DNA of 41,567 bases from a virus. The stretch lies in IMG/VR virus record IMGVR_UViG_3300013306_000779, positions 1 to 41,567 of that record; one strand, 5' to 3'. Below, piece by piece: positions 1 through 41,567 of this stretch. How positions within the stretch are numbered: the first letter of the stretch is position 1; every line of letters begins with the position of its first letter. The notes below the pieces were generated by a model. That model was not told where the DNA came from. It ran no database searches and was given only the letters and a program-made list of their open reading frames with translations. Made by a program: the position numbers and the translations under genes.

Positions 1-141
1 TTACTGACTGGCGCGCGCGGCGCGCACCGCGCGGACGAACGCCGTGCTGCTCTGGTTGTAGACGTAGGCGCCGCCGTAGCTGAAGTTGACGCTCCACGCG
101 TAGCCAGCCGGCGACGAGGCGACGGGAGTGCTCGACCAATA
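1..141 (-). repeat. DGR-type variable repeat VR1
   Basis: The 141 nt at the 3' end of the first DUF1566 gene align without gaps to 4643-4783. 122 positions are identical and 19 differ, in 13 codons. Every difference falls on codon position 1 or 2. Twelve of the 13 codons end in C in both copies, and the other is ACT versus TCT. The distal 48 nt, next to and including the stop codon, are identical and very GC-rich, as expected for an initiation-of-mutagenic-homing segment. In known DGRs template AAC codons become NNC by adenine-specific mutagenesis. In VR1 many variable codons are AAC, TAC or AGC. Confidence 0.85.
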
Positions 142-474
142 CCACGACGATTCGGCCTTGAAGAACGCGGTTTCGATCGCGGGGCTGAACCGCTCGTAGT
201 CGACCAGGCTGAGCAGCTCCTTGATCGTCGGAAGGCGCCAATCGGAGTGCTTGCCGATGCGCACCGACGCGGCTGCAACTTTTGCTTCTGACCACTTGTA
301 AGGCGTGCCAGCGCCGACCGTATCGGCCATCCAGATCAGGCCGGTTTCGCGATCGAGGACCTGCGACCAGGATTTGGCTGTCGGAGCGAGCTCCTTGCCC
401 GTGCTGCTTAACTTGATGAAGCGAACGGACGCCGATTTTGACTTCGCGGCTTTTTTCTTCGGTGAGGATTTCAT
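1..474 (-). CDS. DUF1566 (Lcl C-terminal) protein, probable DGR variable protein 1
   Basis: A 157-residue protein with a Lys/Ser-rich N-terminal stretch (about residues 1-20) followed by one DUF1566 domain. Family hallmarks seen are GLIW, DWRLPTIKEL, YWSS and the C-terminal FVRAVR. DUF1566 proteins adopt a C-type-lectin-like fold and are known targets of diversity-generating retroelements. The last 47 codons, including the stop, match the end of the gene at 4643-5056 except at 13 codons that differ only at bases one and two. The upstream halves of the two proteins are clearly diverged, so the match is local. I chose ATG 474, which overlaps the ParB-like gene stop as ATGA; a longer open frame upstream runs through that gene and is spurious. 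It is the last gene of the leftward operon and its stop is the first base of the window. The protein has no signal peptide. Its ligand or virion location is unknown. Confidence 0.9.
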   Translation of the reverse strand: MKSSPKKKAAKSKSASVRFIKLSSTGKELAPTAKSWSQVLDRETGLIWMADTVGAGTPYKWSEAKVAAASVRIGKHSDWRLPTIKELLSLVDYERFSPAIETAFFKAESSWYWSSTPVASSPAGYAWSVNFSYGGAYVYNQSSTAFVRAVRAARASQ

Positions 475-2429
475 GAGCGATCCTTGGTTTTTGCGACGGT
501 GGATTCGGCAGCGCCGAACCGCAGCGGTTTCGGCAGCCAGGTCTTGAGCAGCGGCTGCGCCAGATCGGCGAGCTCGGATTTCTTGAGCTTCTCGGCCTTG
601 CCGATGACGGCCTTGTCGACTTTGGCCTCCTTGAGCGCGGCCAGGATGGTGGCGGCGTTGACGCGGCCGAGGTAGTTGTCGCGCTTGGCCGTCCATCTCG
701 GCCGCATGTTCAGCTTGAGCGCTGCGGCGAGCGGCAATGCGCGATGATCTCTCTCGTCGCCAGCGATAACATCGATGGATTCGGCCACGCAATAGACGAG
801 CAGGCGCTGTACGGTCTTGCCCGCATCCTTGATCAACCAAGCGAGCAGCTCATCCGACTTCTTCGGCAACATGGCCTGCAGCGCGACGCGTTCGGCGCCG
901 AGCTTGGCGATGTCAGCATTGCCGTCGACGGCCATGCTGAGGCGTTCGGCGCGCAGCGCCTGGTTGGGCGCCTGAGTGTGCTCATGCTCGATCTTTACCG
1001 GATGACTATGCGCCGACGTCGTCGGGTAGAACTGTTTCAAGGCAAGCCGATGTGTCAAGGCGATTACGGCGCTGCCTGGCTGGGCGATCATCTCGGCGGC
1101 GATCGCGAATGTGGCGGCCGCAGTGAGCTCGCGCAGGAGCGCCTCACTATGGCCTGGCTGCTGCGCGACCGTTGCGCCGGCGCCCGCTTTGCCTTTCTTC
1201 GCGTCCTTCTCCTGGCGCAGCTTGCCCTTGACCAGGCCGCGATAGATGACCAGGTTGCCGCTGTTACGATCGAGGCCAATCATCGCGCCGCCCTTGGCGA
1301 GGATCTTCGGATCCCACTTGGCGTGCGCGTCTTCGATCAGGCGCAGCTCGGCCTCGATCGCGCGGCAGCGATCGCGTAATTCGCCGGCCTCATCCTGCCG
1401 CTCGGTATCCCAGATCTTGCGCGACATCTTTCCGGCTTCGTCGCGCTCGAGCTTCAGCGCAGCGACCTGTTTTTTCTCGGCGTCGTCGGGCTTCGTGAAC
1501 CCGATCGGCTCGGCGCGCGAATATTCGTTTAGATCCTCATATTGGGAGATCGTCTCGCGCACGATGACGAACGACCAGCCTTCCTTGCGCACGCGTTCCT
1601 CGACCTCCGCGAGCTTCTTCGTGGCGAGCTCCTGCAGGAGGCGTTTGTCGGTGATGTAGCCGGCATCCTTGTCGCTGAAAAGATCGCGGTGCACGTGGCC
1701 GCCGGCGCGCTCGTATTCGCGCAGACCGACGAAGCGGGCGACCGGATCCTTGGCGATATCGATTTCGCCCTTCGTGAGGGCCTCGCGCAGCTTGTCCGGC
1801 GCGCGGCTCCATTCGTCTTTTGACTTGCCCCAGGCCTTCTCCTGCGCGGCATGATCGTCGACGATCGCGAGCGCCATCATCTGCGCGAGCGTGATCTTAT
1901 CGTTGCGGAATTGCTCGAACAGGCTTGGCGCGACGTTGGCCAGCTTGAGGCGGCGCTGCACGACTTGCGGCGTGACGCCGAAGCGCGCGGACACGTCGTC
2001 GACGGACTTGCCCTGCGCGATCATGTCGCGGAAGGCGACGAACTCGTCGGCCGGGTGCATGGCCTGGCGCACGGTATTCTCGGCCAAGCTGGCGGTGAGG
2101 GCTTGCGATTCATCGATCAGGCGGCAGGGGATGCCGTCGCGCAGCTCGGCCGGCAAACGGTTTTCTTTCGCGAGCAGGCGCAGCGCGCGCGTGCGGCGGC
2201 AGCCGGCGACGACAGTGTAATGCTCGAACTCGCTGGCGCCGGCGAGCGGCGAGGTCGTGTCGCCGACGACGGTGAGGTTCTGCAGCAGGCCTTCGGCAGC
2301 GATGGAGGCGGCGAGCTCGGTGATGCTGATGCCGTTCGTCTTCCGCACGCCATGCGTGGCTTCGCTGAGGCGCTCGATCGGCACGGTGATCAGGCGCGGT
2401 TCGATGGCGGGTGTGGCGAGCTTGTTCAT
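471..2429 (-). CDS. ParB/RepB/Spo0J-family protein, large phage type
   Basis: A 652-residue protein. The N-terminal quarter has the ParB/sulfiredoxin-like domain: an AGCRRTRAL box (the family GxRR motif) and then an EN..R..MHPADE segment. A helix-turn-helix follows (SVDDVSARFGV..QVVQRRLKLA). ParB proteins bind centromere-like sites, and many are CTPases that slide on DNA; large phage and plasmid homologues often have unknown roles. The last 400 residues are helical, charged and unassigned. ATG 2429 is preceded by AAAGG at good spacing; the TTG at 2447 is less likely. There is no ParA gene in the window, so a complete partition system is not shown. It lies between a zinc protein and the terminal DUF1566 gene, overlapping the latter by 4 bp. 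A parS-like palindrome occurs at 16610, but this helix-turn-helix is not obviously of the chromosomal parS-reading type. Alternatives are a transcription or silencing factor. Confidence 0.85.
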   Translation of the reverse strand: MNKLATPAIEPRLITVPIERLSEATHGVRKTNGISITELAASIAAEGLLQNLTVVGDTTSPLAGASEFEHYTVVAGCRRTRALRLLAKENRLPAELRDGIPCRLIDESQALTASLAENTVRQAMHPADEFVAFRDMIAQGKSVDDVSARFGVTPQVVQRRLKLANVAPSLFEQFRNDKITLAQMMALAIVDDHAAQEKAWGKSKDEWSRAPDKLREALTKGEIDIAKDPVARFVGLREYERAGGHVHRDLFSDKDAGYITDKRLLQELATKKLAEVEERVRKEGWSFVIVRETISQYEDLNEYSRAEPIGFTKPDDAEKKQVAALKLERDEAGKMSRKIWDTERQDEAGELRDRCRAIEAELRLIEDAHAKWDPKILAKGGAMIGLDRNSGNLVIYRGLVKGKLRQEKDAKKGKAGAGATVAQQPGHSEALLRELTAAATFAIAAEMIAQPGSAVIALTHRLALKQFYPTTSAHSHPVKIEHEHTQAPNQALRAERLSMAVDGNADIAKLGAERVALQAMLPKKSDELLAWLIKDAGKTVQRLLVYCVAESIDVIAGDERDHRALPLAAALKLNMRPRWTAKRDNYLGRVNAATILAALKEAKVDKAVIGKAEKLKKSELADLAQPLLKTWLPKPLRFGAAESTVAKTKDRS

Positions 2430-2456
2430 CGGTATACCTTTGCGCAATTTGCGCGG

Positions 2457-2693
2457 TTAAAGGACGGTGTCGCGCGTGATCTGGTGACGTTTCACGGTGG
2501 CGAGGGTGGAAAGATGGCGCCGGCCGGCGTTCCATCGCTCGAGGTAGCGATCGCATCCGCAGCAGACGCCGACCGACTCACCGCGGTCGACGACGAGCCA
2601 GAAGCACGGCTTGCCCGTCGCCGGATTCGTGCAGGCATGGAAGTCGTCGCAGCCGCAGCCGATGCAAATGGCCAGTTCGATCAGCTGGAACAT
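2457..2693 (-). CDS. Small cysteine-rich, probably zinc-binding protein
   Basis: A 78-residue protein with clustered cysteines: CIGCGC, then HAC, a lone C, and VCCGC, giving two pairs that could hold one or two metal ions. Such small zinc proteins are common in phage early operons, and no function is known for this one. I chose ATG 2693, one base after the upstream gene's TGA; the open frame extends further but only as overlap of that gene. The gene is 27 nt upstream of the ParB-like start and is presumably co-transcribed with it. Confidence 0.7.
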   Translation of the reverse strand: MFQLIELAICIGCGCDDFHACTNPATGKPCFWLVVDRGESVGVCCGCDRYLERWNAGRRHLSTLATVKRHQITRDTVL

Positions 2694-2694
2694 G

Positions 2695-3342
2695 TCAGAG
2701 CGTTGACTCGATCGCGCCGAGCACTGCGGACTTGAGGCCGTCGGGCATCGGATCCGGATGCAGGTGCATGAGCGCAAGCGCCATTGTGCGCAAGGAGCCG
2801 CGCTCGACGACGACGCCCTTGGTGACCAGCGCGCTTTCTGCGGCCGTCATCACGTAAGCGCCAACGGTGAGACCGCGCGTCACAGTCGCCGACGCAGCTT
2901 TCTGTGCGATCGCGATTGCCTTGGCGGGGGGGGCAGACTTACGGCCAGCTTTGCGGCCTGGCTTGGCTTTGCCGGATCCAGATGGGCGTCCGCGTTTCTT
3001 CGGCGCCGGCGCATGCGCGATTGGTTCGGCCGAGCGCTGTTTCGCGACCGCGGCCTTCGCCGTCTTCGCGATCTTGCTGACGATCTTCTCGGCGACGTTC
3101 TCGGCGATATCCTGTTTCGGCGCGCGCTTGGGAACGTAGCTCGGATCGATCAGATAGGTTCCGCTGCCGCTCTCTGTCGGCGCCTCGCGCATTACCTCCC
3201 CCGATTCGCACATGGCGAACAGTGGGCTTGCGACATTCGCGGATGTAACGCTGTCGTCGTCAAGTGCTTCGCGCACCTCGCGCGCGGTCATGGGTCCGGA
3301 AGCGGCGCGGAGTACTTCGCGAATGCGATCGGCAAGCGTCAT
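2695..3342 (-). CDS. DNA-binding protein with winged-helix-like N-terminus and AT-hook-like centre
   Basis: A 215-residue protein. Residues 1-70 resemble a winged-helix domain of the kind that begins with ADRIREVL and TAREVREAL. Residues 75-145 are Lys/Ala/Pro-rich and include KKRGRPSGSG, an AT-hook-like core, plus further basic repeats. The C-terminal 60 residues are a small helical domain. This suggests a nucleoid-type or regulatory DNA-binding protein; the target is unknown. The ATG has a usable purine-rich leader and the gene follows the cell-wall hydrolase by 15 nt in the leftward operon. The basic low-complexity middle is visible directly; the regulatory role is inference. Confidence 0.7.
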   Translation of the reverse strand: MTLADRIREVLRAASGPMTAREVREALDDDSVTSANVASPLFAMCESGEVMREAPTESGSGTYLIDPSYVPKRAPKQDIAENVAEKIVSKIAKTAKAAVAKQRSAEPIAHAPAPKKRGRPSGSGKAKPGRKAGRKSAPPAKAIAIAQKAASATVTRGLTVGAYVMTAAESALVTKGVVVERGSLRTMALALMHLHPDPMPDGLKSAVLGAIESTL

Positions 3343-3357
3343 GGTTTGGCCCTCGGG

Positions 3358-3846
3358 TTAATTAGCCGCGACGATCGGCGGCGCGGCATAAAAGGTGTGC
3401 GCGCCCAGGCGGCAGACGATGCCGGCGCGATCGATATGCGCGTCCTGGTCGAACGCGGTGGCGGCACTGCAGGCGAACGGCACCGGCGCGGTGCCGGCGA
3501 TCACCTGGTCGGCGATATCGAGCGCGCGGGACCAGGAGGCGGCATCGATGCGCTCGGGATGGCGCGGCGTTGGCCAGCGATCGAGGCCGACGAACTGGCC
3601 CGGCTGCAGGGCGACGTCGCACAGCGTGCGCGGCCAGCGGCCGGCGGGATCGATCGCGCGATTGATGACGACTTGCATCGTCGCGGCCATGCCGGCGTCG
3701 CCCTGGTCGCGCGCTTCGCTGAAACCGACGAGCGCAAGGCACGTGCGGCCACTGAAATCGACGAGCGGCGCCGGCGGGCGGTCTTCGTTGAAGTCGAGGC
3801 CGGCGGAGATAATGGCCGCGAAGCCAAGGAGCTTGGCGAGGGCCAT
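3358..3846 (-). CDS. Cell-wall hydrolase, SleB/Hydrolase_2 family
   Basis: A 162-residue protein. It has a hydrophobic N-terminus (about residues 1-16) that could be a signal-arrest or cleavable signal, then the family core with glutamate 44 in SEARDQGDAGM, VVINRA, CDVALQPGQF and a C-terminal GAHTFYA. Hydrolase_2 enzymes cleave peptidoglycan glycan strands, as in spore cortex lysis and phage lysis. The open frame extends upstream, but ATG 3846 begins the coherent domain and lies just past the stop of the upstream membrane or secreted gene. A second, unrelated peptidoglycan enzyme (M15, 23693-24202) lies in the rightward lysis cassette. This one may therefore act in entry, superinfection or remodelling rather than classical lysis; that is inference. 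Its expression should follow the repressor-controlled leftward promoter. Confidence 0.8.
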   Translation of the reverse strand: MALAKLLGFAAIISAGLDFNEDRPPAPLVDFSGRTCLALVGFSEARDQGDAGMAATMQVVINRAIDPAGRWPRTLCDVALQPGQFVGLDRWPTPRHPERIDAASWSRALDIADQVIAGTAPVPFACSAATAFDQDAHIDRAGIVCRLGAHTFYAAPPIVAAN

Positions 3847-3847
3847 C

Positions 3848-4093
3848 TCAGCGATCGAACCCGTTGGAGGAAATACGATCGACGCTGCATGTGGCAGGCA
3901 GAGCGAATACGCCGGAGGCATATTTGCCGCCGGCCGGCCCGCACACGTACACGTTGCCGCATGCCAGAACGACCATGCCGCGCTGCCATGCGACGGGGCC
4001 GGAGAACGTGCAGGATTTGCCGGCGAGCTGGATGATCACTGTCGGCGCTGTGATGAGAATGAGCATCACGGCGAGAGCGAGCCAGGTCTTCAC
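3848..4093 (-). CDS. Small secreted or membrane protein upstream of the hydrolase
   Basis: An 81-residue protein. Residues 1-24 are a strong hydrophobic segment after MKTW, reading as a signal peptide or single membrane anchor. The rest contains four cysteines that could form disulfides in the periplasm. I do not recognise the family. It overlaps the upstream gene by 4 bp (ATGA) and ends one base before the hydrolase start, so translation is probably coupled. A helper or inhibitor role for the hydrolase is possible from position only. Confidence 0.7.
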   Translation of the reverse strand: MKTWLALAVMLILITAPTVIIQLAGKSCTFSGPVAWQRGMVVLACGNVYVCGPAGGKYASGVFALPATCSVDRISSNGFDR

Positions 4094-4404
4094 GCGACGC
4101 GCCTTTGCGTGGCGATGCGCGCGCGCTGTGGATTGGTTTTTGGCAAGCGCTCACGCGCCAGGCGCAGCAGCTCGAAGGCTTCGCGGCCAGCGGCGGTGAT
4201 CGAATAATGGCGCATGCCGCCACGGTCGATGCGCAGCGAAACGTGCCCGCGCGCGGTGGCGACATAGAGGATCGCGCCAGCGCGGCCCTGCTTGGAATCG
4301 GCGGCATGCGAGCACTCGGCCAGCGTGAGCTCGCCACGCTCGAGCAACGCGGCCATGATCGCATCGGTCGCTGCGCTGGTACGGTCGGCTCTTACGCGCG
4401 GCAT
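4090..4404 (-). CDS. Winged-helix-like small DNA-binding protein
   Basis: A 104-residue protein. The N-terminal 70 residues look like a winged helix: DAIMAALLERGELTL, ECSHAADS, then a wing-like GHVSLRIDRGGMRHYSIT stretch typical of small phage regulators that end in YSIT..GRE. The C-terminus is basic. This suggests a local transcription regulator, with no identifiable operator. It overlaps the following gene by 4 bp and the preceding gene by 13 bp, so it belongs to the same leftward transcript. Confidence 0.7.
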   Translation of the reverse strand: MPRVRADRTSAATDAIMAALLERGELTLAECSHAADSKQGRAGAILYVATARGHVSLRIDRGGMRHYSITAAGREAFELLRLARERLPKTNPQRARIATQRRVA

Positions 4405-4616
4405 GCGTCGGCGTCCAGCGCTTCCGCCGGCGACTGCTCGGCGATGGTAATAAAGCTGCGCTCATGCATGGTGATTGAGATCGACTCGCCCGGCGCGAGA
4501 TCCTGGAACTGCTGCAGCGCGGCCGGCTCGCCTGGCGCGATGTCGGTGCGATTGATTGCAATGACGAGCTTGCGCGATGCATCTGCGCTCAGAGCCATTT
4601 GAAGTTTTGCGGGCAT
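4392..4616 (-). CDS. Small conserved-looking phage protein, unknown function
   Basis: A 74-residue acidic-to-neutral protein beginning MPAKLQMALSAD. No known motif was recognised. ATG 4616 has an AGAGG ribosome site nine bases upstream, which decides this start over the longer open frame that runs back into the DUF1566 gene. It lies 26 nt downstream of the second variable-protein gene. Accessory proteins of DGRs (Avd) are larger helical-bundle proteins of about 120 residues. This protein does not look like one, so I do not call it Avd. Confidence 0.65.
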   Translation of the reverse strand: MPAKLQMALSADASRKLVIAINRTDIAPGEPAALQQFQDLAPGESISITMHERSFITIAEQSPAEALDADACRA

Positions 4617-4642
4617 CGCCGATCCTCTTGCCAAAAGTCCAA

Positions 4643-4783
4643 TTACTGACTGGCGCGCGCGGCGCGCACCGCGCGGACGAACGCCGTGCTGTCCTGGCCG
4701 CTGACGCCGGCGACGCCGCCGTAGAAGCTGACGCCCCACGCGCAGTCAGCCGGCGACGAGGCGTCGGGAGAGCTCGACCAATA
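4643..4783 (-). repeat. DGR-type variable repeat VR2
   Basis: Ungapped 141-nt partner of positions 1-141. The 19 differences are confined to bases 1 and 2 of 13 codons lying within a 27-codon stretch, and the third bases of all 47 codons are identical. Ordinary divergence would put most changes at third positions, so this is the reverse of drift under purifying selection. Similarity stops abruptly upstream of 4783. Confidence 0.85.
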
Positions 4784-5056
4784 GAAATCGGATTTCAGCC
4801 TGAGCTCAGGATCGGCGGCAGGATTGAAGCGCGAGCGATCGCGAAGCGTTTCAAGCTCTTCGATCGTCGGCAAGCGCCAGTCGTCGAATCCCGCGCTGCG
4901 AAACGATGCCGCTGCCTCCTTGGCATCCTTCCAGTTCATTCGCTTTTCGGAGACGTCAATCGCGGCCCACATCAGGCCGTTTTTCTCGTCGAGGAATGCG
5001 GCCAAAGTTGGCGCGCCGATCGGCCGACCGTCGCTTCCAATTTTTATCATCTGCAC
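4643..5056 (-). CDS. DUF1566 (Lcl C-terminal) protein, probable DGR variable protein 2
   Basis: A 137-residue protein consisting almost wholly of one DUF1566 domain: GLMW, WKDAKEAAASF, DWRLPTIEEL, YWSSS and the terminal FVRAVR. Its N-terminal 85 residues are only moderately similar to the protein encoded at 1-474, yet the last 47 codons are nearly the same apart from 13 scattered codons. That is the pattern expected when one DGR template serves two targets. GTG 5056 sits six bases after AAGGAG and is preferred; ATG 5050 is possible. There is no signal peptide. It lies in the middle of the leftward operon. The lectin-like fold and ligand-display role come from the family; the actual ligand is unknown. 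Confidence 0.88.
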   Translation of the reverse strand: MQMIKIGSDGRPIGAPTLAAFLDEKNGLMWAAIDVSEKRMNWKDAKEAAASFRSAGFDDWRLPTIEELETLRDRSRFNPAADPELRLKSDFYWSSSPDASSPADCAWGVSFYGGVAGVSGQDSTAFVRAVRAARASQ

Positions 5057-5374: not shown

Positions 5375-5481
5375 TGCGTGATGCCCGCGAGGAACAGGCC
5401 CCAACCGGCCACGGCTATGCCGATGCCTATGCAGGCAAGCAGGAAAAAGAACAGGGTGCGGCGCGAGGGCTGGCTGCTCAT
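5371..5481 (-). CDS. 36-residue single-span membrane peptide
   Basis: A very short gene read directly from the minus strand: MSSQPSRRTL, then one hydrophobic helix of about 24 residues and a short polar tail ending in ITQ. It is joined by ATGA overlaps at both ends to the 40-residue peptide gene before it and the 100-residue gene after it, which is the main evidence that it is real. N-in, C-out topology is suggested by the RR before the helix. It could be a holin-like, superinfection or toxin-like micropeptide; nothing decides between these. Confidence 0.6.
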   Translation of the reverse strand: MSSQPSRRTLFFFLLACIGIGIAVAGWGLFLAGITQ

Positions 5482-5600
5482 GGCAGCGCACCGAAACAGC
5501 GCGAAAGGCCAATGAGCAGGCCGAGAACTACGCCGATGATGGCTGCGGCGTAGGGGTGGGTACGAGCGTTCGGATCGTAGACCCAGAAAGGACGAGGCAT
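5478..5600 (-). CDS. 40-residue single-span membrane peptide, first gene of the leftward operon
   Basis: A short gene beginning MPRPFWVYDP with a hydrophobic helix from about residue 18 to 33 containing GVVLGLLIG, ending in CFGALP. GGAG stands seven bases before the ATG, and the gene begins about 21 nt after the predicted start of the repressor-controlled leftward promoter. Its stop overlaps the next membrane-peptide gene by 4 bp. Two consecutive one-helix peptides at the head of an operon containing a cell-wall hydrolase suggest a membrane-active pair. The function is not shown. Confidence 0.65.
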   Translation of the reverse strand: MPRPFWVYDPNARTHPYAAAIIGVVLGLLIGLSRCFGALP

Positions 5601-5627
5601 TTTGCGCTCCGCTGCTATGCGGTGCGC

Positions 5628-5671
5628 ATATTAGGTCCGGCCTAATTTATTTGTCAATAGGCACAGCCTAA
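5628..5671 (-). promoter_or_regulatory. Leftward promoter with two repressor operators
   Basis: Read leftward, -35 TTGACA (5652-5657) and -10 TAATAT (5628-5633) are 18 bp apart. One inverted repeat, TTAGGCCGGACCTAA, fills 5631-5645 between the boxes. A second, TTAGG-N5-CCTAT, fills 5657-5671 and touches the -35. Repeat centres are 26 bp apart. The module closely matches the rightward one at 6827-6870, so the same regulator should bind both. A bound dimer at either site would block RNA polymerase. Confidence 0.75.
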
Positions 5672-5680
5672 TATTTGTTC

Positions 5681-6121
5681 TTATTCCTGAATGGTGGTCA
5701 GCACGTCGTTTTCAAAGTAGAGGTAATGGCGATCACTATACGAGCTGCCAAAGACCCATTGCTCGCGCACGCCGCGCGAAGTCTCAGTTCGATTTTTGCT
5801 AGGCCAGCTGCCAAGCCATGGGTTGTATTTTATTTTCCCCTCATCGATTTGCCTTAACCTCGTCGGGAAATCGACTTTCTTATTTTCTTCGATCGATTGA
5901 AGCAATACCGCCTCAACTTCGGACTTCTTCATTCCTACGCGTGGCCGCCAATCGCTAATATCAGCAGCGAGTGCCGGCGCCGGCGGGGGCGCTGCGGCAC
6001 CCGTGCATGCGGCCTCGGTCCAAGCGCCATTGGCGTCCTTACATTTGTAAGATGCGGCGAGCGCACTTAATCCGGCGATAGAGGCTAATAACGCGATCGC
6101 GGCGATAGATATCGTTCGCAT
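5681..6121 (-). CDS. Secreted protein with DUF4124-like start and BamE/SmpA-like C-terminus (candidate moron)
   Basis: A 146-residue protein. Residues 1-23 are a clear Sec signal peptide (hydrophobic core, then ALAAS). YKCKDANGAWTEAAC follows, as in small periplasmic DUF4124-like proteins, then an Ala/Pro linker. The C-terminal half resembles the BamE/SmpA fold: VGMKKSEVEAVL, then EQWVFG and YLYFENDVL. AAGGA lies seven bases before ATG 6121. The gene shares orientation with the repressor and is separate from the leftward early operon by position. A possible -10 (TAAAAT, 6160-6165) lies upstream. It could therefore be expressed in the lysogen and alter the host envelope; that is inference from position and secretion. 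Confidence 0.75.
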   Translation of the reverse strand: MRTISIAAIALLASIAGLSALAASYKCKDANGAWTEAACTGAAAPPPAPALAADISDWRPRVGMKKSEVEAVLLQSIEENKKVDFPTRLRQIDEGKIKYNPWLGSWPSKNRTETSRGVREQWVFGSSYSDRHYLYFENDVLTTIQE

Positions 6122-6260
6122 GGCCTAATCCTTCGACCTTGGTCGTCTCCAAAAATGCGATTTTAGCGTGTTCAACTGCGCTGCCACACAACCGACAGGG
6201 GGTTGGTAATGGTAGATTTCGACAAGTCTGATCCTGTGTTCCTTGCATGGATGGGGAAGC

Positions 6261-6294
6261 AAAAAAGGGCGGCTGTGCGAACTAGCTCGCCTTT
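6261..6294 (-). terminator. Possible terminator after the repressor gene
   Basis: On the minus strand AAAGGCG at the end of the repressor gene can pair with CGCCCTTT (one bulge) across a 16-nt loop, followed by six T's (6261-6266). The stem is short and partly inside the coding sequence, so this is a weak call. If real, it separates the repressor from the secreted gene. Confidence 0.3.
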
Positions 6295-6803
6295 GCCCCT
6301 TTACGACGATCTTGTTCGACGATACCGAGCAATTCTGCAAGCAGGCCCGTCTTCAGTGACGCGCCTTCAGCTGCCGCTCTGTTTCGAAGATGCTCGGCAA
6401 AGGACGTCGCTGCGGCTGGTATATTCGCGGCCAGCGCAGTGATCAAGCTAGCCGCGACCATGCCCAATTCATCGGCGGTCGGCTCAGCTTGATCGCGTAC
6501 TCGACCTGGCGCCTGCGGAGAAATTTCGTAGGCTCCAATTCCGGGTGCGAATGATGGCCCTTTGCCTTTTCCCCAATAAAGCCACTCGAAGCTCAAATCC
6601 CAGATTGTGCACATGCGTTGGGCTTTGCGCGTCGATGGAAGGTGATTGCCGGACAACCAAGCCGAGACGGTTGGCGGCTTAACGCCGAAAAGCTTCGCGA
6701 GCCTCTCTTGGCCACCGCGATCAGCGAAACCCTTTGCAGTCAGCACCTTGCGTAGACGTGCAGCAAATTCGCCAGCGTCCGGTAGCTCGTCTTTGGTAGG
6801 CAT
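6282..6803 (-). CDS. CI-type phage repressor, HTH XRE, no S24 peptidase domain
   Basis: A 173-residue protein with an XRE/lambda-repressor-like helix-turn-helix at about residues 14-68 (QERLAKLFGVKPPTVSAWLSG) and a WLYWGKG segment common after this domain in phage repressors. The C-terminal 95 residues are helical and alanine-rich. They show no Ala-Gly cleavage site or Ser-Lys dyad of the LexA/CI peptidase, so RecA-triggered self-cleavage is not expected. It faces the Cro-like gene across a 75-bp region with two operators, the classical immunity layout. AGGA precedes ATG 6803. It should repress both operator-bearing promoters and may control its own. How induction occurs is unclear: an antirepressor or another route would be needed. 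Confidence 0.85.
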   Translation of the reverse strand: MPTKDELPDAGEFAARLRKVLTAKGFADRGGQERLAKLFGVKPPTVSAWLSGNHLPSTRKAQRMCTIWDLSFEWLYWGKGKGPSFAPGIGAYEISPQAPGRVRDQAEPTADELGMVAASLITALAANIPAAATSFAEHLRNRAAAEGASLKTGLLAELLGIVEQDRRKGAKAS

Positions 6804-6826
6804 CGCCTAATCCTATCGAAATAAAA

Positions 6827-6870
6827 TTAGGGCCGTCCTATTGACACAAAACTTAGGACGGACCTAACAT
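6827..6870 (+). promoter_or_regulatory. Rightward promoter with two repressor operators
   Basis: -35 TTGACA (6841-6846), an 18-bp spacer, and a -10-like TAACAT (6865-6870). Operators are TTAGG-N5-CCTAT at 6827-6841 and TTAGGACGGACCTAA at 6853-6867, with starts 26 bp apart. The inner operator differs from the inner operator of the leftward promoter by one base, and CCTATTGACA is shared exactly. The predicted start is about 6877, only one or two bases before the Cro-like ATG. Confidence 0.75.
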
Positions 6871-6878
6871 GCGCGGCC

Positions 6879-7094
6879 ATGAGCTACGAAGCCCTCGACC
6901 GAGCTATCGCGAAATTCCCGAGCCAGAAGGCTTTCGCCGATGCGCTTGAGGTGAAATCGCCGTCTGTCTCTGAATGGCGGGCGCGCGAACGCGTGCCTGC
7001 TGAGCGTTGCCGAGACATTGAGAAGCTCACTGGCGTCACTGCCGCCGAGCTTCGTCCTGATCTATTTGGCGACGACGAGGCGAGAGCGGCTTGA
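6879..7094 (+). CDS. Cro/YdaS-type transcription regulator
   Basis: A 71-residue helix-turn-helix protein: QKAFADALEVKSPSVSEW is the HTH, followed by RVPAERCRDIEKLTG and ELRPDLF, the signature of the YdaS/Cro_C1 family. Such proteins oppose the CI repressor at shared operators and open the lytic route. It is the first gene of the rightward transcript. There is no Shine-Dalgarno before ATG 6879, and the predicted transcript begins almost at the ATG, suggesting a leaderless message. No N or Q antiterminator was recognised downstream. Confidence 0.85.
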   Translation: MSYEALDRAIAKFPSQKAFADALEVKSPSVSEWRARERVPAERCRDIEKLTGVTAAELRPDLFGDDEARAA

Positions 7095-7219
7095 AAATGA
7101 AGCGCAAAGAATTGGCCGTTTCTAGCGGCCCTGAAATTATTCGAGGTAGGTTTTCTCCGAGATGGACGGCTGAAATAGCCAAGCATCTGCAGCGAGGCCA
7201 CCACCGCAAGGTCGCCGCG

Positions 7220-7423
7220 CTATTTTCCGAACGACCGCCGCAGCTTCTCCATCGCTTCCTCGACCGGCTTGATCGCCTTCTCGCGCTGCGTGGCGAGGAA
7301 CTTGTCGAGGTTGAATCTGTGGCCGCACTTCGCGCAAATACGGTGCGCCTGCGTGTTACGTGCCGGCTTGAGAAATTCGTCGCTGCCGCACTTATTGCAG
7401 CGAATCGTGATCTTCGTTCCCAT
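7220..7423 (-). CDS. Small zinc-ribbon protein
   Basis: A 67-residue protein with CNKC and CAKC pairs 20 residues apart, a classical zinc ribbon (TIRCNKCGS...RICAKCGHRF), followed by a basic helical tail. GGAG lies about eight bases before ATG 7423. It points against the flanking early genes on the plus strand, and open frames on the plus strand here have no motif. It could bind nucleic acid or be a protein adaptor. No terminator with a T-run was found after it. Confidence 0.6.
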   Translation of the reverse strand: MGTKITIRCNKCGSDEFLKPARNTQAHRICAKCGHRFNLDKFLATQREKAIKPVEEAMEKLRRSFGK

Positions 7424-7599
7424 CGCGGATCTCCGGTATGTGGATGACGTTGCACTCGGAAGTATACCGGCCGATCCGCGGCCAATTCACGACGGTAGAT
7501 CGCAGGGCCTTGCCGTACTTTGGCCGCCGAGCTTGGGCCGTCTTTTTCTCCCCGTTGCCTGCTCATGCGGGCATTCCATCACTTTGCCTGGAGTAGGGC

Positions 7600-8223
7600 A
7601 TGTCAATCATTGACCAAGGCGGCATAGGCGCGCTGCCAACGCGATCGAAACTGATCGCACGGCGAACAGAGCAAGCGATCGCGGTCAGCGGATTGAACGT
7701 TCTCAAGTTCGCTTCGCGCGTAGCCGAGAAGTTCATCGCCAAGGTGCCGCAGTTCCAACGTTGCGTACAGTTCTACGAGCCAGGTGCGACGCTGGAAAGC
7801 GCGCTGCATGCGGAGCTGTCTAACGGAAAGCTGGTCGACCGATTCCTGAAAGGTATCGTGAAGTTTCCCGCGGATCTCGAGGAATGCTGGGTGGACTCAT
7901 TGCCCGAGCCGCATCGCAGTGATCTCGTGCGCGAGCTCGCGTGGCGATACGGGTTGCTCGGCGCCAAGCTGCCAGACGCAGCGCATCATGAACATATTGC
8001 GCGCTTGGCTGATGTCCTGGCCGACGCGGGCCGCACGGCCGTCGCACTCGCACCGCTATTCGAGAAGGGCCAGCTGAACGTCGAAGGCGAGAGCGGCCCA
8101 CGCATTGCGCAGTCGATGCTGTCGATCGACAAGTCGATCGGCGATCTGATTGGACTGAGAGAACAGATTGCGGCGCAGATGCGAGGCACCAAGACCAGCA
8201 CGCCATCGAAGCGTAGCCGGTAA
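7600..8223 (+). CDS. Early phage protein, unknown function
   Basis: A 207-residue, mostly helical protein with no recognised motif. GGAG lies before ATG 7600, and its stop overlaps the next start (TAATG), so the two are coupled. The 176 bp before it show no clear promoter. It lies between the immunity region and the primase-helicase, where many temperate phages keep replication-accessory or host-takeover genes. The sequence does not say which. Confidence 0.7.
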   Translation: MSIIDQGGIGALPTRSKLIARRTEQAIAVSGLNVLKFASRVAEKFIAKVPQFQRCVQFYEPGATLESALHAELSNGKLVDRFLKGIVKFPADLEECWVDSLPEPHRSDLVRELAWRYGLLGAKLPDAAHHEHIARLADVLADAGRTAVALAPLFEKGQLNVEGESGPRIAQSMLSIDKSIGDLIGLREQIAAQMRGTKTSTPSKRSR

Positions 8224-8426
8224 TGCCGCCATGGGGTGAGGCAGCCCGCACGCTTGATGCGCTGCGTTGGTTGGCAGATGACTCGCGCAAGCCAACCAGG
8301 CAGCAGCTCGCCGAAGCGGAAGCGATCCTTGCCGAGCCGCCGGCGAACGATCCTCAAGCATCGCTCGCGTTCCCGAATCCCTTCCCCCCTTTGATTGAAA
8401 AAGAAACTCGCGCGCCTCGGCGTTAG
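8223..8426 (+). CDS. Small early protein, unknown function
   Basis: A 67-residue protein with a helical N-terminal half (ALRWLADDSRKPTRQQLAEAEAIL) and a Pro-rich tail. Start and stop of the two genes share TAATG, the best evidence that it is expressed. It ends 72 bp before the terminator that closes this small operon. Confidence 0.6.
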   Translation: MPPWGEAARTLDALRWLADDSRKPTRQQLAEAEAILAEPPANDPQASLAFPNPFPPLIEKETRAPRR

Positions 8427-8497
8427 CGAGTCATCACGATGCGCACAAGTATACAAATAGAAGCAAGCCGGTCAAAAGGTACTCCCGTGCCGCCTTG

Positions 8498-8523
8498 AAC
8501 GCGGGTAAAAAGACCGCGTTTTT
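8498..8523 (+). terminator. Intrinsic terminator
   Basis: AACGCGG (8498-8504) pairs perfectly with CCGCGTT (8514-8520) around a 9-nt loop, and the stem ends in a T5 run (8519-8523). It closes the early pair of genes and separates them from the primase-helicase, which must have its own promoter or depend on antitermination. The interval 8524-8607 has only a weak promoter candidate (TTGAAA at 8540). Confidence 0.65.
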
Positions 8524-8607
8524 GCCGTAGTTAGTGGGGTTGAAAGTTACTGAAATCGGGGAGTTTAGTCGGTCGTTTTCGCCAGCGACGTCGGACATTA
8601 GAACAAG

Positions 8608-11037
8608 ATGATCGCAACGAACTACGACGACGTCCTCGATCAGCTCCGCGCCGCCGGCCTCATCGTCGACCGCATCGAGCTAGATCGCTGGATCCGCGTC
8701 CGCGTCGAAGGCCGCGGCCGTGAGAAATGTGGTTGGTATCGCCTGGTCGAATGGTACTCGCCGTCCGGCGAGACGCTCATCGTCGGCAGCTTTGGCTTTT
8801 GGGAAGGCACCGGCAACAACGCCAGGCGCGTCGAGCTGCCCAAGCGCGACGGCGGCAAGCGCCAGGAGCTGACCGACGACCAGCGCGACGCATTCAAGCG
8901 CCGCCTGGCCGAGGATCGCAAGAAAGCCGACCAGCTCCGCGCCGCCGACGCACGCCGGGCCGCCGATCGCGCCTCGAAGGCCTGGGCGCAATGCGCGCCG
9001 ACCGGCGAATCCGATTACCTCGCACGCAAGGCCGTCCAGGGCTACGGCGTGCGCTACTCGCCGTCGGGTGCGCTCGTCATTCCGATGATCGACACCGCCG
9101 GCAAGCTGCACGGCCTGCAGGTGATCCGATCACGCAAGGTCGCCAAGGCCGATGGCGCGCCAGAGAAACAGTACTGGCCCGCCGGCGTCGTCACGCGCGG
9201 GCATTTTCACCTGATTGGCTCGCCGCAATGGATCCTGCTCATCGCCGAGGGCTACGCAACGGCGGCCACGCTTCACCAGGCCACCGGCTACCCGGTCGCC
9301 GTCGCCTTCGATGCGAACAACCTCGGCCCCGTCGCCACCGCGCTGCGCAAGCGCTACCGCCGCGTGCAGATCCTCATCTGCGCCGACGACGACATCCTGC
9401 GCAAGTGCAAGCATTGCAAGGCGCGCTTCGTCCTGGCGCCCGGCGTGCCGCTGCTCTGCATCGCGTGCGGCAAGGAACACGGCCAGGACAATCCCGGCGT
9501 CAGCGCCGCCAGCACCGCGGCCGTCGAGGTCGGCGGATCCTTCATCGTCCCGCAGTTCCCGGATCCGGCCGCGCGCGCCGCGCTGTTCATCGACAAGGGC
9601 GTCAAGCTCACCGACTTCAACGACCTCTACGCGCTTCCCGAAGGCGGCGGCACGTTCGTCGTGCGCAGCCAGGTCGAGGCCCGCATGCTGGAGCTTGGTA
9701 TGCGCGCTCGATACGAGCTCGCGGCGATCAGCAACGAGAACGGGGCCGGGGGGCGGCAGAGGTTACGGCCAATCGGCACCGTCGACGAGCTCATGCACCG
9801 TTTTGCACTTGTATACGGCCAGGGCGGCGCCGTCTTCGATCGCAACGAGCACCAGCTCGTCTCGCTCAAGGACATGTCCGACGCCTGCGCCTACAAGTAC
9901 CTGCACCGCACCTGGATGGAGTCGGCCGACCGCGCGATCGTGCGCATGGATGAAGTCGGCTTCGATCCCGGCGGCGAAGACGCGAAGATCACCTGCAACC
10001 TATGGGCCGGCTGGCCGACAACGCCGTCGACCGAAGGCAAGTGCGACAAGCTGCTCGATCTGCTGCGCCACATGTGCCGCGGCGAGGATCGCGCAGAGCC
10101 GCTCTATCGCTGGGTGCTGTCCTGGCTCGCCTATCCGCTGCAGCATCCCGGCGCGAAGATGAAGACCACGCTCGTGTTGCACGGTCCGCAGGGCACCGGC
10201 AAGAATCTGTTCTTCGAAGCGATCATGGCCATCTACGGCCCCTACGGCCGCATCATCGACCAGGGCGCGATCGAGGACAAATTCAACGAGTGGGCCAGCC
10301 GCAAGCTATTCCTCATTGCAGACGAAGTCGTCGCCCGATCCGACCTCTACCACATCAAGAACAAGCTCAAGGGCTTCATCACCGGCGAGTGGATCCGGAT
10401 CAACCCGAAGAACATCGCCGCCTACGACGAGCGCAACCACGTCAACATGGTGTTCCTAAGCAACGAGGCCGTGCCTGTCGTGCTCGAGGAAGACGACCGC
10501 CGGCACACCGTCATCTGGACGCCACCGAAGATGTCGCAGAAAGCCTACGACGACGTCCTCGCCGAGCTGCGCGCCGGCGGCGTCGAAGCCTTGCACGATT
10601 TCCTCCTGCACTACGATTGCGGCGAATTCAACCCCGGCACTGCGCCGATCGGCACCGACGCCAAGACTGAACTGATCAACCAATCGCTCGACAGCACAAC
10701 GCGCTTCGTCTACGCCCTGCAGACCGGCGACATCGGCGCCGTCAAGTATCAGCCCGCGCTCGCGACCGAGGTCTACGCGCTCTACAAGTTCTGGTGCGCT
10801 CAGGTCGGCGAGCGCCATGCGCCGCTGCGACGCCTCGAGAACGCGCTCGCGCGCAAGCACGAAGTATACAAATCGCGCAAGCGCTACCTCGACAAGGGCA
10901 TCGCCAAAAACCCGCAGGCCTTTTTCATGTTCACTACCGAGCAGCCGGAAGGCTTCGTCGAGCAGGCCTGGCTCGGCAACTGCGTCGAAGAGTTTCGCGA
11001 CGCGGTCAAGGAATTCCGAGGTACGGCCAGTGACTAG
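8608..11037 (+). CDS. Phage primase-helicase (TOPRIM plus DUF5906-type helicase)
   Basis: An 809-residue replication protein. The TOPRIM domain has glutamate 214 in LIAEGYATA, AFDANN and the triple aspartate at 260-262. It carries an inserted CxxC-x13-CxxC zinc ribbon (Cys 267, 270, 284, 287) just after the aspartates. The C-terminal half is a helicase: Walker A GPQGTGKN (526-533), Walker B LFLIADE (Asp 572, Glu 573), a sensor-like VFLSNE, and EEDDRRH as a likely arginine finger. Homologues prime and unwind DNA for theta-type replication of P4-like and related phages. ATG 8608 has only a weak ribosome site. The stop overlaps the next gene's GTG. No separate replication initiator gene is seen, so the origin may be nearby, perhaps in the repeats at 11319-11598. 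Confidence 0.9.
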   Translation: MIATNYDDVLDQLRAAGLIVDRIELDRWIRVRVEGRGREKCGWYRLVEWYSPSGETLIVGSFGFWEGTGNNARRVELPKRDGGKRQELTDDQRDAFKRRLAEDRKKADQLRAADARRAADRASKAWAQCAPTGESDYLARKAVQGYGVRYSPSGALVIPMIDTAGKLHGLQVIRSRKVAKADGAPEKQYWPAGVVTRGHFHLIGSPQWILLIAEGYATAATLHQATGYPVAVAFDANNLGPVATALRKRYRRVQILICADDDILRKCKHCKARFVLAPGVPLLCIACGKEHGQDNPGVSAASTAAVEVGGSFIVPQFPDPAARAALFIDKGVKLTDFNDLYALPEGGGTFVVRSQVEARMLELGMRARYELAAISNENGAGGRQRLRPIGTVDELMHRFALVYGQGGAVFDRNEHQLVSLKDMSDACAYKYLHRTWMESADRAIVRMDEVGFDPGGEDAKITCNLWAGWPTTPSTEGKCDKLLDLLRHMCRGEDRAEPLYRWVLSWLAYPLQHPGAKMKTTLVLHGPQGTGKNLFFEAIMAIYGPYGRIIDQGAIEDKFNEWASRKLFLIADEVVARSDLYHIKNKLKGFITGEWIRINPKNIAAYDERNHVNMVFLSNEAVPVVLEEDDRRHTVIWTPPKMSQKAYDDVLAELRAGGVEALHDFLLHYDCGEFNPGTAPIGTDAKTELINQSLDSTTRFVYALQTGDIGAVKYQPALATEVYALYKFWCAQVGERHAPLRRLENALARKHEVYKSRKRYLDKGIAKNPQAFFMFTTEQPEGFVEQAWLGNCVEEFRDAVKEFRGTASD

Positions 11038-14632: not shown

Positions 14633-16684
14633 ATGAACGCCGCCGCCCAATCCTTCGCCCAAGCCTCGACCCTCGTCGACGCCAACCGCGCGATCGCCGC
14701 TGCGATCGCCCGCGCGATCGCGCCACGCAAGGTGCTCACCGTCTCGCAATGGGCCGATGCCGAGCGCAAGCTGTCGTCGAAGGAAGGGCCGATCACCGGC
14801 GACTGGGTCACCGCGCGCAACCCGCCGCTGCGCGAGCCGATGGATAACCTGTCACGCGGCAGCGGCGTGCACGAGGAGGTTTGCCTGCTGCCGATCCAGC
14901 TCGGCAAGACGGCGATCGAGCTCAACGCAATCGGCTACACCATGGATCACGATCCATGCCCGATCATCGTCTTCCTGCCCGACGACATCACCAAGGACGC
15001 GTGGACGTTGTCGAAGTTCAACCCGATGCTCGAGAACACGCCGGCCGTGCAGCGTGCGCTAACGACGACGAACAGCCGCGACAGCGCCAACCAGCGCGCG
15101 TTCAAGGATTTCGCCGGCGGCCAGATCTTCGTCGAGCATGGCAAGACCGCGTCGCGCATGTCGCTGCGCACAGCGAAAAAGGTCTACGTCGACGAGCTCG
15201 ACAAGTTCGCCAATGAGCTGAAGTCCGGCGAGGATCCGCTCGAGCTGATCCGCGGCCGCGTCAGCGCGTACCCGTCGAGCTACCAGATCTGCTACATCGG
15301 CTCGCCCGGCATCAAGGGCGTCTCGCGCCTGGACGAACTGTGGGACAAGTCCGACCAGCGCGAGTACCACGTGCCGTGCCCGCACTGCGGCCACGAGCAG
15401 CCGCTGCTGTGGGCCGGCCTGCAGTGGGAAAGCGATCGCAGCCGATGCTGGTATGTCTGCGCCGCCAACGGCTGCATGATCGACGAATCGCACAAGACCG
15501 AGATGATCGCGCGCGGCCGCTGGGTGCCCAAGCACCTCGAGATGAAGATCCGCGGCTATCACCTCAACTGCCTCTACTACCCGGTCAACATGGGCCCGCG
15601 CTGGCTCGACCTGGTCAACATGTGGCTCGATGCGCAAGGCGACCTGGCCAAGCTGCAGGTGTTCGTGCAGGAGCGCCTGGCCGAGGCCTGGGAAAACGCT
15701 GCCACGCGCAACGTCAAGGCCGCGACGGTGAAGGAACGCGCGGAGAGTTATCCGCTCAAAATCGCGCCGCGCGGCGTGCTCGCCGTCGTCGCCGGCGTCG
15801 ACGTCCAGGACAACCGCTTGCCGATGCACATCCTCGGCATCGGCCGCGGCCCTCGCCCTGGCCAGCTGCGTGTGTGGACGCTCGACTATGACGAGCTGCC
15901 CGGCGATCCCGCCGAGGACTACGTCTGGAGCCTGCTCACCGATCGCCTCAACCAGACGATCGAAGTCGAAGGCGGAGGCATCCTGCGCGTCGAAGCCACC
16001 GCGATCGACCTCATGGGCCACAAGACCGAAGCCGTCAAGGCCTACGTGCGCCGCAAGGCCATCCGCCGCCCGATGGCCGTCTACGGCGCCAAACAGGCCA
16101 CAGCTGTCGCGCTGTCGCGACCAAAGCTCGCCGACGTCAACTGGCGCGGCCTCAACGACAAGCGCGGCGTTCAGATATGGCAGGTCGGCACCGTCGCAAT
16201 CAAGGATCTGCTCTTCTCCTGGCTCGCCGCCGACGCGGATCCGGAGAAGGTCGGCGACGACGGCCGCACCAAGGTCCCGCGCGAGCTCGCCGATCGCCGC
16301 GTGCACTTCTCCGATCAGCTCGACGACAGTTTCTTCAAGGGCATCGTCAGCGAAGTTTTCAACCCGCGCACCAACCGCTACGAAAAGCGCAAAGGCGGCG
16401 GACGCAACGAGCCGCTGGATACCTGGGTCTACGCCTACGCCGCCGCCTGCCATCCCGAGCTGCGCCTGCACCGCCGCTCGAAGGTCGAATGGGACCAGGC
16501 CGAAGCGCGCCTTGTCGCGACGGGCGGTTCAGTTGAGACGTCGACGCCGGCGCTGCCTCAGCAGCCGCCATCGCCCGCGGAATCTACGAAAAGTACACAA
16601 GTGCAAAAAGTTCCACGTGGAACGGGTGGCGGCCATGGCGGCGCAGGCGGGTTCGGTTCGAGCGAGTGGAGTGGGCGGTTATGA
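14633..16684 (+). CDS. Terminase large subunit, GpA family
   Basis: A 683-residue DNA-packaging motor and nuclease. It has a degenerate Walker A (LPIQLGKT, about 86-93), Walker B VYVDELDKF (Asp 187, Glu 188), a zinc cluster (CPHC at 249-252 with a later CWYVC) and a nuclease core beginning GVDVQDNR (Asp 390). The C-terminal LDTWVYAYAA segment is followed by a Pro/Ser/Gly-rich tail. The family cuts concatemers at cos and pumps DNA through the portal. The tail contains the parS-like palindrome at 16610-16623. The gene ends 12 bp from a convergent minus-strand gene. Confidence 0.93.
   Translation: MNAAAQSFAQASTLVDANRAIAAAIARAIAPRKVLTVSQWADAERKLSSKEGPITGDWVTARNPPLREPMDNLSRGSGVHEEVCLLPIQLGKTAIELNAIGYTMDHDPCPIIVFLPDDITKDAWTLSKFNPMLENTPAVQRALTTTNSRDSANQRAFKDFAGGQIFVEHGKTASRMSLRTAKKVYVDELDKFANELKSGEDPLELIRGRVSAYPSSYQICYIGSPGIKGVSRLDELWDKSDQREYHVPCPHCGHEQPLLWAGLQWESDRSRCWYVCAANGCMIDESHKTEMIARGRWVPKHLEMKIRGYHLNCLYYPVNMGPRWLDLVNMWLDAQGDLAKLQVFVQERLAEAWENAATRNVKAATVKERAESYPLKIAPRGVLAVVAGVDVQDNRLPMHILGIGRGPRPGQLRVWTLDYDELPGDPAEDYVWSLLTDRLNQTIEVEGGGILRVEATAIDLMGHKTEAVKAYVRRKAIRRPMAVYGAKQATAVALSRPKLADVNWRGLNDKRGVQIWQVGTVAIKDLLFSWLAADADPEKVGDDGRTKVPRELADRRVHFSDQLDDSFFKGIVSEVFNPRTNRYEKRKGGGRNEPLDTWVYAYAAACHPELRLHRRSKVEWDQAEARLVATGGSVETSTPALPQQPPSPAESTKSTQVQKVPRGTGGGHGGAGGFGSSEWSGRL
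16610..16623. promoter_or_regulatory. parS-like palindrome inside the terminase gene
   Basis: GTTCCACGTGGAAC is a perfect 14-bp palindrome and equals the core of the bacterial parS consensus TGTTNCACGTGNAACA (14 of 16 matches, since both outer bases differ). It lies in the sequence encoding the disordered C-terminal tail (KVPRGTG), where codon constraint is weak. I found no second copy in the window. It could be bound by host ParB or by the phage ParB-like protein. Confidence 0.6.
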
Positions 16685-40769: not shown

Positions 40770-41567
40770 ATGGAAAGCGTCCCGATCATCCCCTGGCTCG
40801 GCGGTAAGCGCCGCCTTGCCGATCGCCTGCTCAAGTTATTCCCGCCGCATGATTGCTATGTCGAAGCGTTCGCCGGCGGCGCGGCTCTGTTTTTCCTGCG
40901 GCCGTTGCCTGCCAAAGCCGAGATCCTCAACGATGCGAATGGCGACCTGGTCAACCTCTATCGCTGCGTGCAGCATCACCTCGAGGAGTTCGTGCGGCAG
41001 TTCAAATGGGCGCTCAGCTCGAGGCAGATGTTCAAATGGCTGCAGGACACGCGGCCGGAAACGTTGACCGATATCCAGCGAGCGGCGCGCCTGTTCTATC
41101 TGCAGCATCACGCTTTTGGCGGCAAGGTCACCGGCCAGGCCTTCGGCACGGCGACGACGTCGCCGACCGTCAACTTGCTGCGCATCGAGGAGACGCTGAG
41201 CGCGGCGCATTTGCGCCTCGCCGGCGTGACGATCGAGCACGCGCATTGGCTTGAATGCGTGCAGCGCTACGATCGCGCGCACACATTGCATTACCTCGAT
41301 CCGCCTTATTGGGAGACGGAAGGGTATGGCCTGCCGTGGGAATTTGCCGAATACGAGCGCATGGCCGAGTTTGCGCGCAAGGCGAAGGGCAGGGTGATGA
41401 TCTCGATCAATGACCATGCAGCGATTCGGACGGTGTTCGATGGGCTGCACCTAGAGCGAACGGAACTGCGCTATTCGGTCGGCAAGGTCGAGACTGATGC
41501 CCGTGTGGCGGCGGGCGAATTGATCCTTACGAACTGGAAACCGGAGCTCATGGGCGGGCTGTTCTGA
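40770..41567 (+). CDS. dam: DNA adenine methyltransferase, Dam (D12 class)
   Basis: A 265-residue protein. N-terminal WLGGKRRL, SAM-binding YVEAFAGGAALFF (30-42), and the catalytic motif DPPY (177-180) in HYLDPPYWETEG place it in the Dam/D12 class of adenine methylases that methylate GATC or related sites. GAGG lies nine bases before the ATG. Its stop is the last base of the window. It would mask phage DNA from restriction or alter regulation. Confidence 0.9.
   Translation: MESVPIIPWLGGKRRLADRLLKLFPPHDCYVEAFAGGAALFFLRPLPAKAEILNDANGDLVNLYRCVQHHLEEFVRQFKWALSSRQMFKWLQDTRPETLTDIQRAARLFYLQHHAFGGKVTGQAFGTATTSPTVNLLRIEETLSAAHLRLAGVTIEHAHWLECVQRYDRAHTLHYLDPPYWETEGYGLPWEFAEYERMAEFARKAKGRVMISINDHAAIRTVFDGLHLERTELRYSVGKVETDARVAAGELILTNWKPELMGGLF

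Follow-up and report, generated by a model that had tools for sequence, protein, structure and literature searches.

The window analysed here is the whole 41,567-base viral record IMGVR_UViG_3300013306_000779, in which profile searches recognise a lambda-type portal, a GpA-type terminase and tail genes. Two of its genes, both of the DUF1566 family, end in nearly the same sequence, which raises the question of whether these ends are the variable repeats (VRs) of a diversity-generating retroelement (DGR) and, if so, where the rest of the element is. The features discussed below are collected in Table 1.

When recomputed, the alignment of positions 1-141 with 4643-4783 was gap-free and identical at 122 of 141 positions. 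The 19 differences fell in 13 codons, every one at codon position 1 or 2, and 12 of these codons ended in C in both copies, the exception being codon 5 (ACT/TCT). All these counts agree with the preliminary description, which had also claimed identity around the stop, found here to extend over the final 49 nt, stop included, and clear divergence outside the 141 nt. The latter holds as well: counted with the repeat, the proteins share 51% identity overall, and they approach identity in the C-terminal repeat only. The chance that 19 differences among 141 positions miss all third positions is P = 2e-4, so that the codon pattern is not accidental.

The length of 141 nt is a lower limit, because the copy at 1-141 is cut at its stop codon by the end of the record and its downstream side is invisible. 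The initial 15 nt (starting Tyr-Trp-Ser-Ser) probably belong to conserved coding sequence outside the mutated repeat, since homology to the template of a related phage (locus L005, see below) begins at about codon 6. The codon 5 difference is the sole one outside this homology, and also the sole one that does not fall on a template adenine. Counted from codon 6 to the stop, the working repeat is approximately 126 nt.

Table 1. Coordinates, strand and annotation of the features of the window.
Feature	Position	Strand	Remarks
Target gene B, free-standing Lcl_C (DUF1566), 157 aa	1..474	-	Pfam PF07603, E=4.6e-32
Target B variable repeat, working part from codon 6 through the stop	1..126	-	
IMH-like 3' end of repeat, ends GCCAGTCAGTAA, GTCAGT form	1..32	-	Identical copy at 4643-4674
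ParB-like protein, between the two targets	471..2447	-	Pfam PF02195, PHROG 7783; in L028 and L110 the orthologue is next to the DGR core
Conserved neighbour gene	3358..3921	-	Also near ParB and targets in L028 and L110
Post-repeat element TTGGACTTTTGGC	4630..4642	-	From comparison with relatives' VR ends
Target gene A, free-standing Lcl_C (DUF1566), 137 aa, GTG start	4643..5056	-	Pfam PF07603, E=7.8e-25
Target A variable repeat, working part from codon 6 through the stop	4643..4768	-	
DNA adenine methylase-like gene, right end of record	40770..41567	+	76% orthologue in L110

Within the 41,567 bases of the record, we found no reverse transcriptase (RT) and no third copy of the repeat that could be a template repeat (TR). 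Avd was not found either, the record ending short of the site where it is expected. A 32-nt inverted near-match to the repeat at 15781-15812, in the terminase gene, is 84% identical and GC-rich, and was judged to be due to chance. The predicted third copy, carrying A at the variable positions, is therefore missing from the record, but such a copy is present in relatives. No exact 24-mer of the repeat was matched in viral contigs. Searching with target B brought up phage contigs that have related targets, and four of these contained an RT. In L004, L005, L028 and L110, an RT of the DGR type stands beside genes orthologous to those of the window.

L004, L005 and L006 each have two variable repeats and, after them, a template repeat where an RT gene begins. 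The L005 template reads ...GAC TAC GCA TGG AAC GTC AAC TTC AAC AAC GGC AAC GCC AAC GTC AAC AAC CAG AAC AAC ACA... It is the nearest template compared and serves as a proxy, the target of that phage being 55% identical, and when the window copies were read against it from codon 7 onward, 18 of 18 in-register differences fell on its adenines (30 A in 123 positions, P = 5e-14), mostly within AAC codons. Wherever the window copies agree and the template base is not A, the same base is found at 59 of 60 positions. The templates of L108, L109, L110, L112 and L117 placed respectively 17, 17, 15, 16 and 16 of the 18 differences on A (P 3e-7 to 3e-11). This comparison, above the codon pattern, is the decisive test of the repeats, and it bears out the adenine-directed mutagenesis of AAC codons initially proposed: judged by a relative's template, the changes in the putative 3' variable repeats of the target genes are confined to adenines. 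Target B differs from the L005 template at A in codons 7, 13, 17, 21, 22, 24, 26, 28, 31 and 32. Codon 32, AAC in that template, is probably a 14th mutated codon, hidden when the two copies alone are compared because both read AGC.

These data bear on two explanations that do without mutagenesis from a template. Two paralogous genes of the same family near each other might result from a recent duplication or conversion, after which positive selection would have acted on surface residues, with no retroelement involved. Such a process would have had to put every one of the 18 differences on adenines of an independent template while leaving third bases frozen, and to restrict near-identity to the C-terminal repeat, which we consider extremely improbable. 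The location of one copy at the very end of the record could also evoke an assembly artefact, in which two population variants of one gene were placed twice. However, the two genes differ in their N-terminal parts and in their neighbours, and relatives have two or three distinct targets, so that hardly any credence can be given to an artefact.

A scan with the RT gave 61 loci, and in most of them a TR and one to four VRs could be recognised. Over 45 gap-free TR-VR pairs, 628 of 1181 template adenines were changed (53%), versus 116 of 4006 other bases (3%), and 53 of these 116 were G-to-C changes, chiefly one fixed marker near the 3' end. Adenines were replaced by G more often than by T, and by T more often than by C (353, 199 and 76), an order also followed by the adenine changes of the window copies (G 25, T 6, C 0). 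The 3' marker reads GTGAGT in the TRs and GTCAGT in the VRs of the window-clade members examined. Both window copies have the VR form, GTCAGT, and therefore neither is the template; by these letters, the putative IMH at the VR 3' end is distinct from the IMH* of the TR. Immediately after the VR stop, a motif YGG.CTTTTKG is present for most VRs of the nearest relatives and at target A of the window, the only target whose post-VR sequence is visible, target B being cut by the record end. As for the GC-rich hairpin of the BPP-1 type (7-10 bp stem, GRNA loop), no stem of at least 7 bp was found shortly after target A, and the stem was missing after 15 of the 16 relatives' VRs examined; the hairpin is missing also in relatives that possess RT and TR.

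Where the core of the element should lie can be read from the relatives, in which Avd, RT (PF00078) and targets form one block. Their Avd-like gene matches the NCBIfam model DivGenRetAVD with E-values of 2e-10 to 2e-8, under the curated cut-off, and where examined (L004-L006 group) it sits between the VRs and the template/RT. Gene order in L110 is neighbour gene, ParB, target, target, Avd, TR/RT and serine recombinase, with a methylase and a tail gene on the other strand. Compared with the window, its neighbour gene is at 63%, its ParB at 53% and its methylase at 76%. Between target B and the methylase, the window is without an interval that in L110 spans approximately 4.2 kb (5479-9721) and holds the second target, Avd, the template/RT and the serine recombinase. 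It is this recombinase-RT/TR-Avd-target block, missing from the record, that the L110 methylase orthologue adjoins. In L028/L109 (ParB 55%), three targets, Avd, TR/RT and ParB are followed by an integrase. In the syntenic relatives, the core is encoded in cis, with hundreds of bases between it and a target. An RT or template near position 1, as the preliminary description foresaw, is absent from the record itself, but relatives of the same gene order have both at the predicted place.

The stop codon of target B (position 1) and that of the methylase-like gene (41567) form the two ends of the record, which suggests a provirus trimmed at gene boundaries, and no terminal repeat denoting circular ends was found there. 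As stop codons bound the record on both sides, the DGR core was probably trimmed off, and its loss through trimming would be the simplest reading. Several other methylase-bearing records likewise end directly after the methylase gene. In a separate case, L111 and L167 belong to one contig, IMGVR_UViG_3300046694_000166 (43,280 bases), with the RT at one end and TR and VRs at the other; this is a DGR split through linearisation of the record. A scan with the terminase reached only relatives at 51-54%, with the DGR region out of reach, and a search of 84,980 species genomes did not find the host or parent genome. In named phages, all relatives of the RT were below 60% identity.

The missing RT and TR could also mean that the VRs are a relic, written by a DGR since lost and now frozen. 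However, the record is cut at gene ends on both sides, the core of L110 occupies exactly the missing interval, and copies devoid of third-position or other drift imply that mutagenesis or homogenisation was recent. We therefore regard a relic as improbable. Alternatively, a DGR at another site of the host, or in a different prophage, might act on the VRs in trans, which would equally account for a record lacking the core, and DGRs with distant targets have been described (PMC4159848). The cis arrangement in syntenic relatives makes this very unlikely. We conclude instead, with high confidence, that a DGR of a temperate tailed phage diversifies at least two targets, of which the repeats are the VRs, the core having most likely been trimmed. 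This DGR interpretation accounts for every feature, passed the independent template test, and is supported; we infer that the phage probably has a DGR core, as its gene order would suggest, and that the DGR may be active.

The relatives show how the missing core may be organised. At 38 loci, among them L005:1150-2415, L004:8633-9880 and L110:6398-7672, the TR lies within the RT open frame. An in-frame ATG, nearly always ATGA, precedes the TR at these loci, one of which is truncated there, whereas no ATG was found between the TR and the RT core in any of them. By eye, the ATGA was seen to overlap the Avd stop in L004, L005, L028 and L110. The TR is read in the VR frame in 35 of the 38; in the other three the frame is open and the TR marker is in another frame. 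The TR may thus double as coding sequence for an Asn-rich RT N-terminus. That a TR inside the RT would be a wholly new layout was ruled out, as DiGReF group 3 already describes such an overlap.

Both targets are proteins of the Lcl_C family (PF07603, formerly DUF1566). The start codon of target B overlaps the end of the ParB gene. Its AlphaFold2 model has a pLDDT of 91.7, and in Foldseek the top solved match of this model was the Legionella Lcl C-terminal domain 8q4e (E=7e-5), other matches being C-type lectins. The structure is predicted with high confidence, and the fold predicted for the diversified domain is that of C-type lectins. Residues 128/130 and 137/139, each changed in at least one copy, alternate along the predicted strands 125-130 and 135-140, and the invariant W127, V129 and F131 stand beside mutated strand residues. 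Such an alternation along the strands would be expected if the mutated residues lay on one exposed face. Bacterial best matches to the target are DUF1566 proteins, at most about 49% identical and mostly from Desulfobacterota, and no phage record was found that matched the Lcl protein. Because the targets have no recognised tail domain and are grouped with ParB and other non-structural genes, we only infer a receptor-binding role for them.

In the proposed mechanism, a TR-bearing RNA would be reverse-transcribed by the DGR RT with Avd, adenines being copied with errors into the cDNA. This cDNA would then replace the 3' end of either target gene, beginning at the IMH-like 3' end, to yield an Lcl_C domain of C-type-lectin fold in which some ten AAC-derived residues would be randomised. 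Approximately 4 kb between 41567 and 1 would be occupied by the core, with Avd, a TR inside the RT frame, RT, recombinase and perhaps another target. From each AAC codon of an L005-like template, 15 amino acids but no stop codon can arise; when its remaining A-bearing codons are counted too, the computed capacity of the L005 template is about 6e14 proteins.

This scheme follows the one established for Bordetella phage BPP-1 (PMC3240598), where errors arise at A during reverse transcription of the TR RNA and the resulting cDNA takes the place of the VR, beginning at the 3' end of the latter. As in BPP-1 (mtd, avd, TR, brt), the VR is C-terminal, changes are adenine-directed in AAC-rich codons, and the target has a C-type-lectin fold (PMC3240598); relatives of the window phage also have an Avd-TR-RT core, and VR and TR 3' ends differ in both systems. 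Unlike BPP-1, with its tail protein Mtd, the window has at least two targets, which are small free-standing Lcl_C proteins. The BPP-1 TR is 144 nt outside brt, whereas that of the relatives is inside the RT frame, and the VR of target A is not followed by a hairpin like the one that BPP-1 requires there. In a survey of human-microbiome DGRs, DUF1566 was the commonest named target domain, and several VRs per template have been described (PMC4159848, PMC6642488). This literature confirms the earlier statement that DUF1566 proteins are known DGR targets. Unlike the bacterial and metagenomic DUF1566 DGRs, the window system belongs to a tailed phage that has relatives among other IMG/VR contigs. 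In DiGReF group 3, the TR overlaps the annotated RT ORF (PMC3521204), and the relatives' TR is likewise inside the RT ORF; they differ from that group in that the TR is fully inside the ORF across a 38-locus clade, with an ATGA start overlapping the Avd stop in the members viewed. The DGR of Burkholderia phage Magia (NC_070954) likewise has a lectin-fold target and Avd, its TR sits within the annotated RT CDS, and an integrase is nearby, but its RT is 42% identical to that of L004 and it has one annotated target.

DUF1566 targets and several VRs per TR were thus already known, and the window is another member of the DGRs. Tentatively, it might belong to a distinct phage DGR lineage, a view we find possible though doubtful, in which the TR would also code for an Asn-rich extension at the RT N-terminus, a short conserved motif would replace the BPP-1 hairpin, and the targets would be small, soluble single-domain lectins instead of tail proteins, encoded near ParB and integrase or recombinase genes and perhaps not receptor-binding. 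Two variable repeats suffice to diagnose a DGR whose core is absent from the record. Cutting viral records at gene boundaries can drop the RT and template and keep the targets, and such phages would be overlooked in DGR counts that demand an RT within the record. The 38-locus clade poses two questions for the biology of these phages: does the translated RT include the TR, and what are the ligands of a temperate phage's free-standing lectins?
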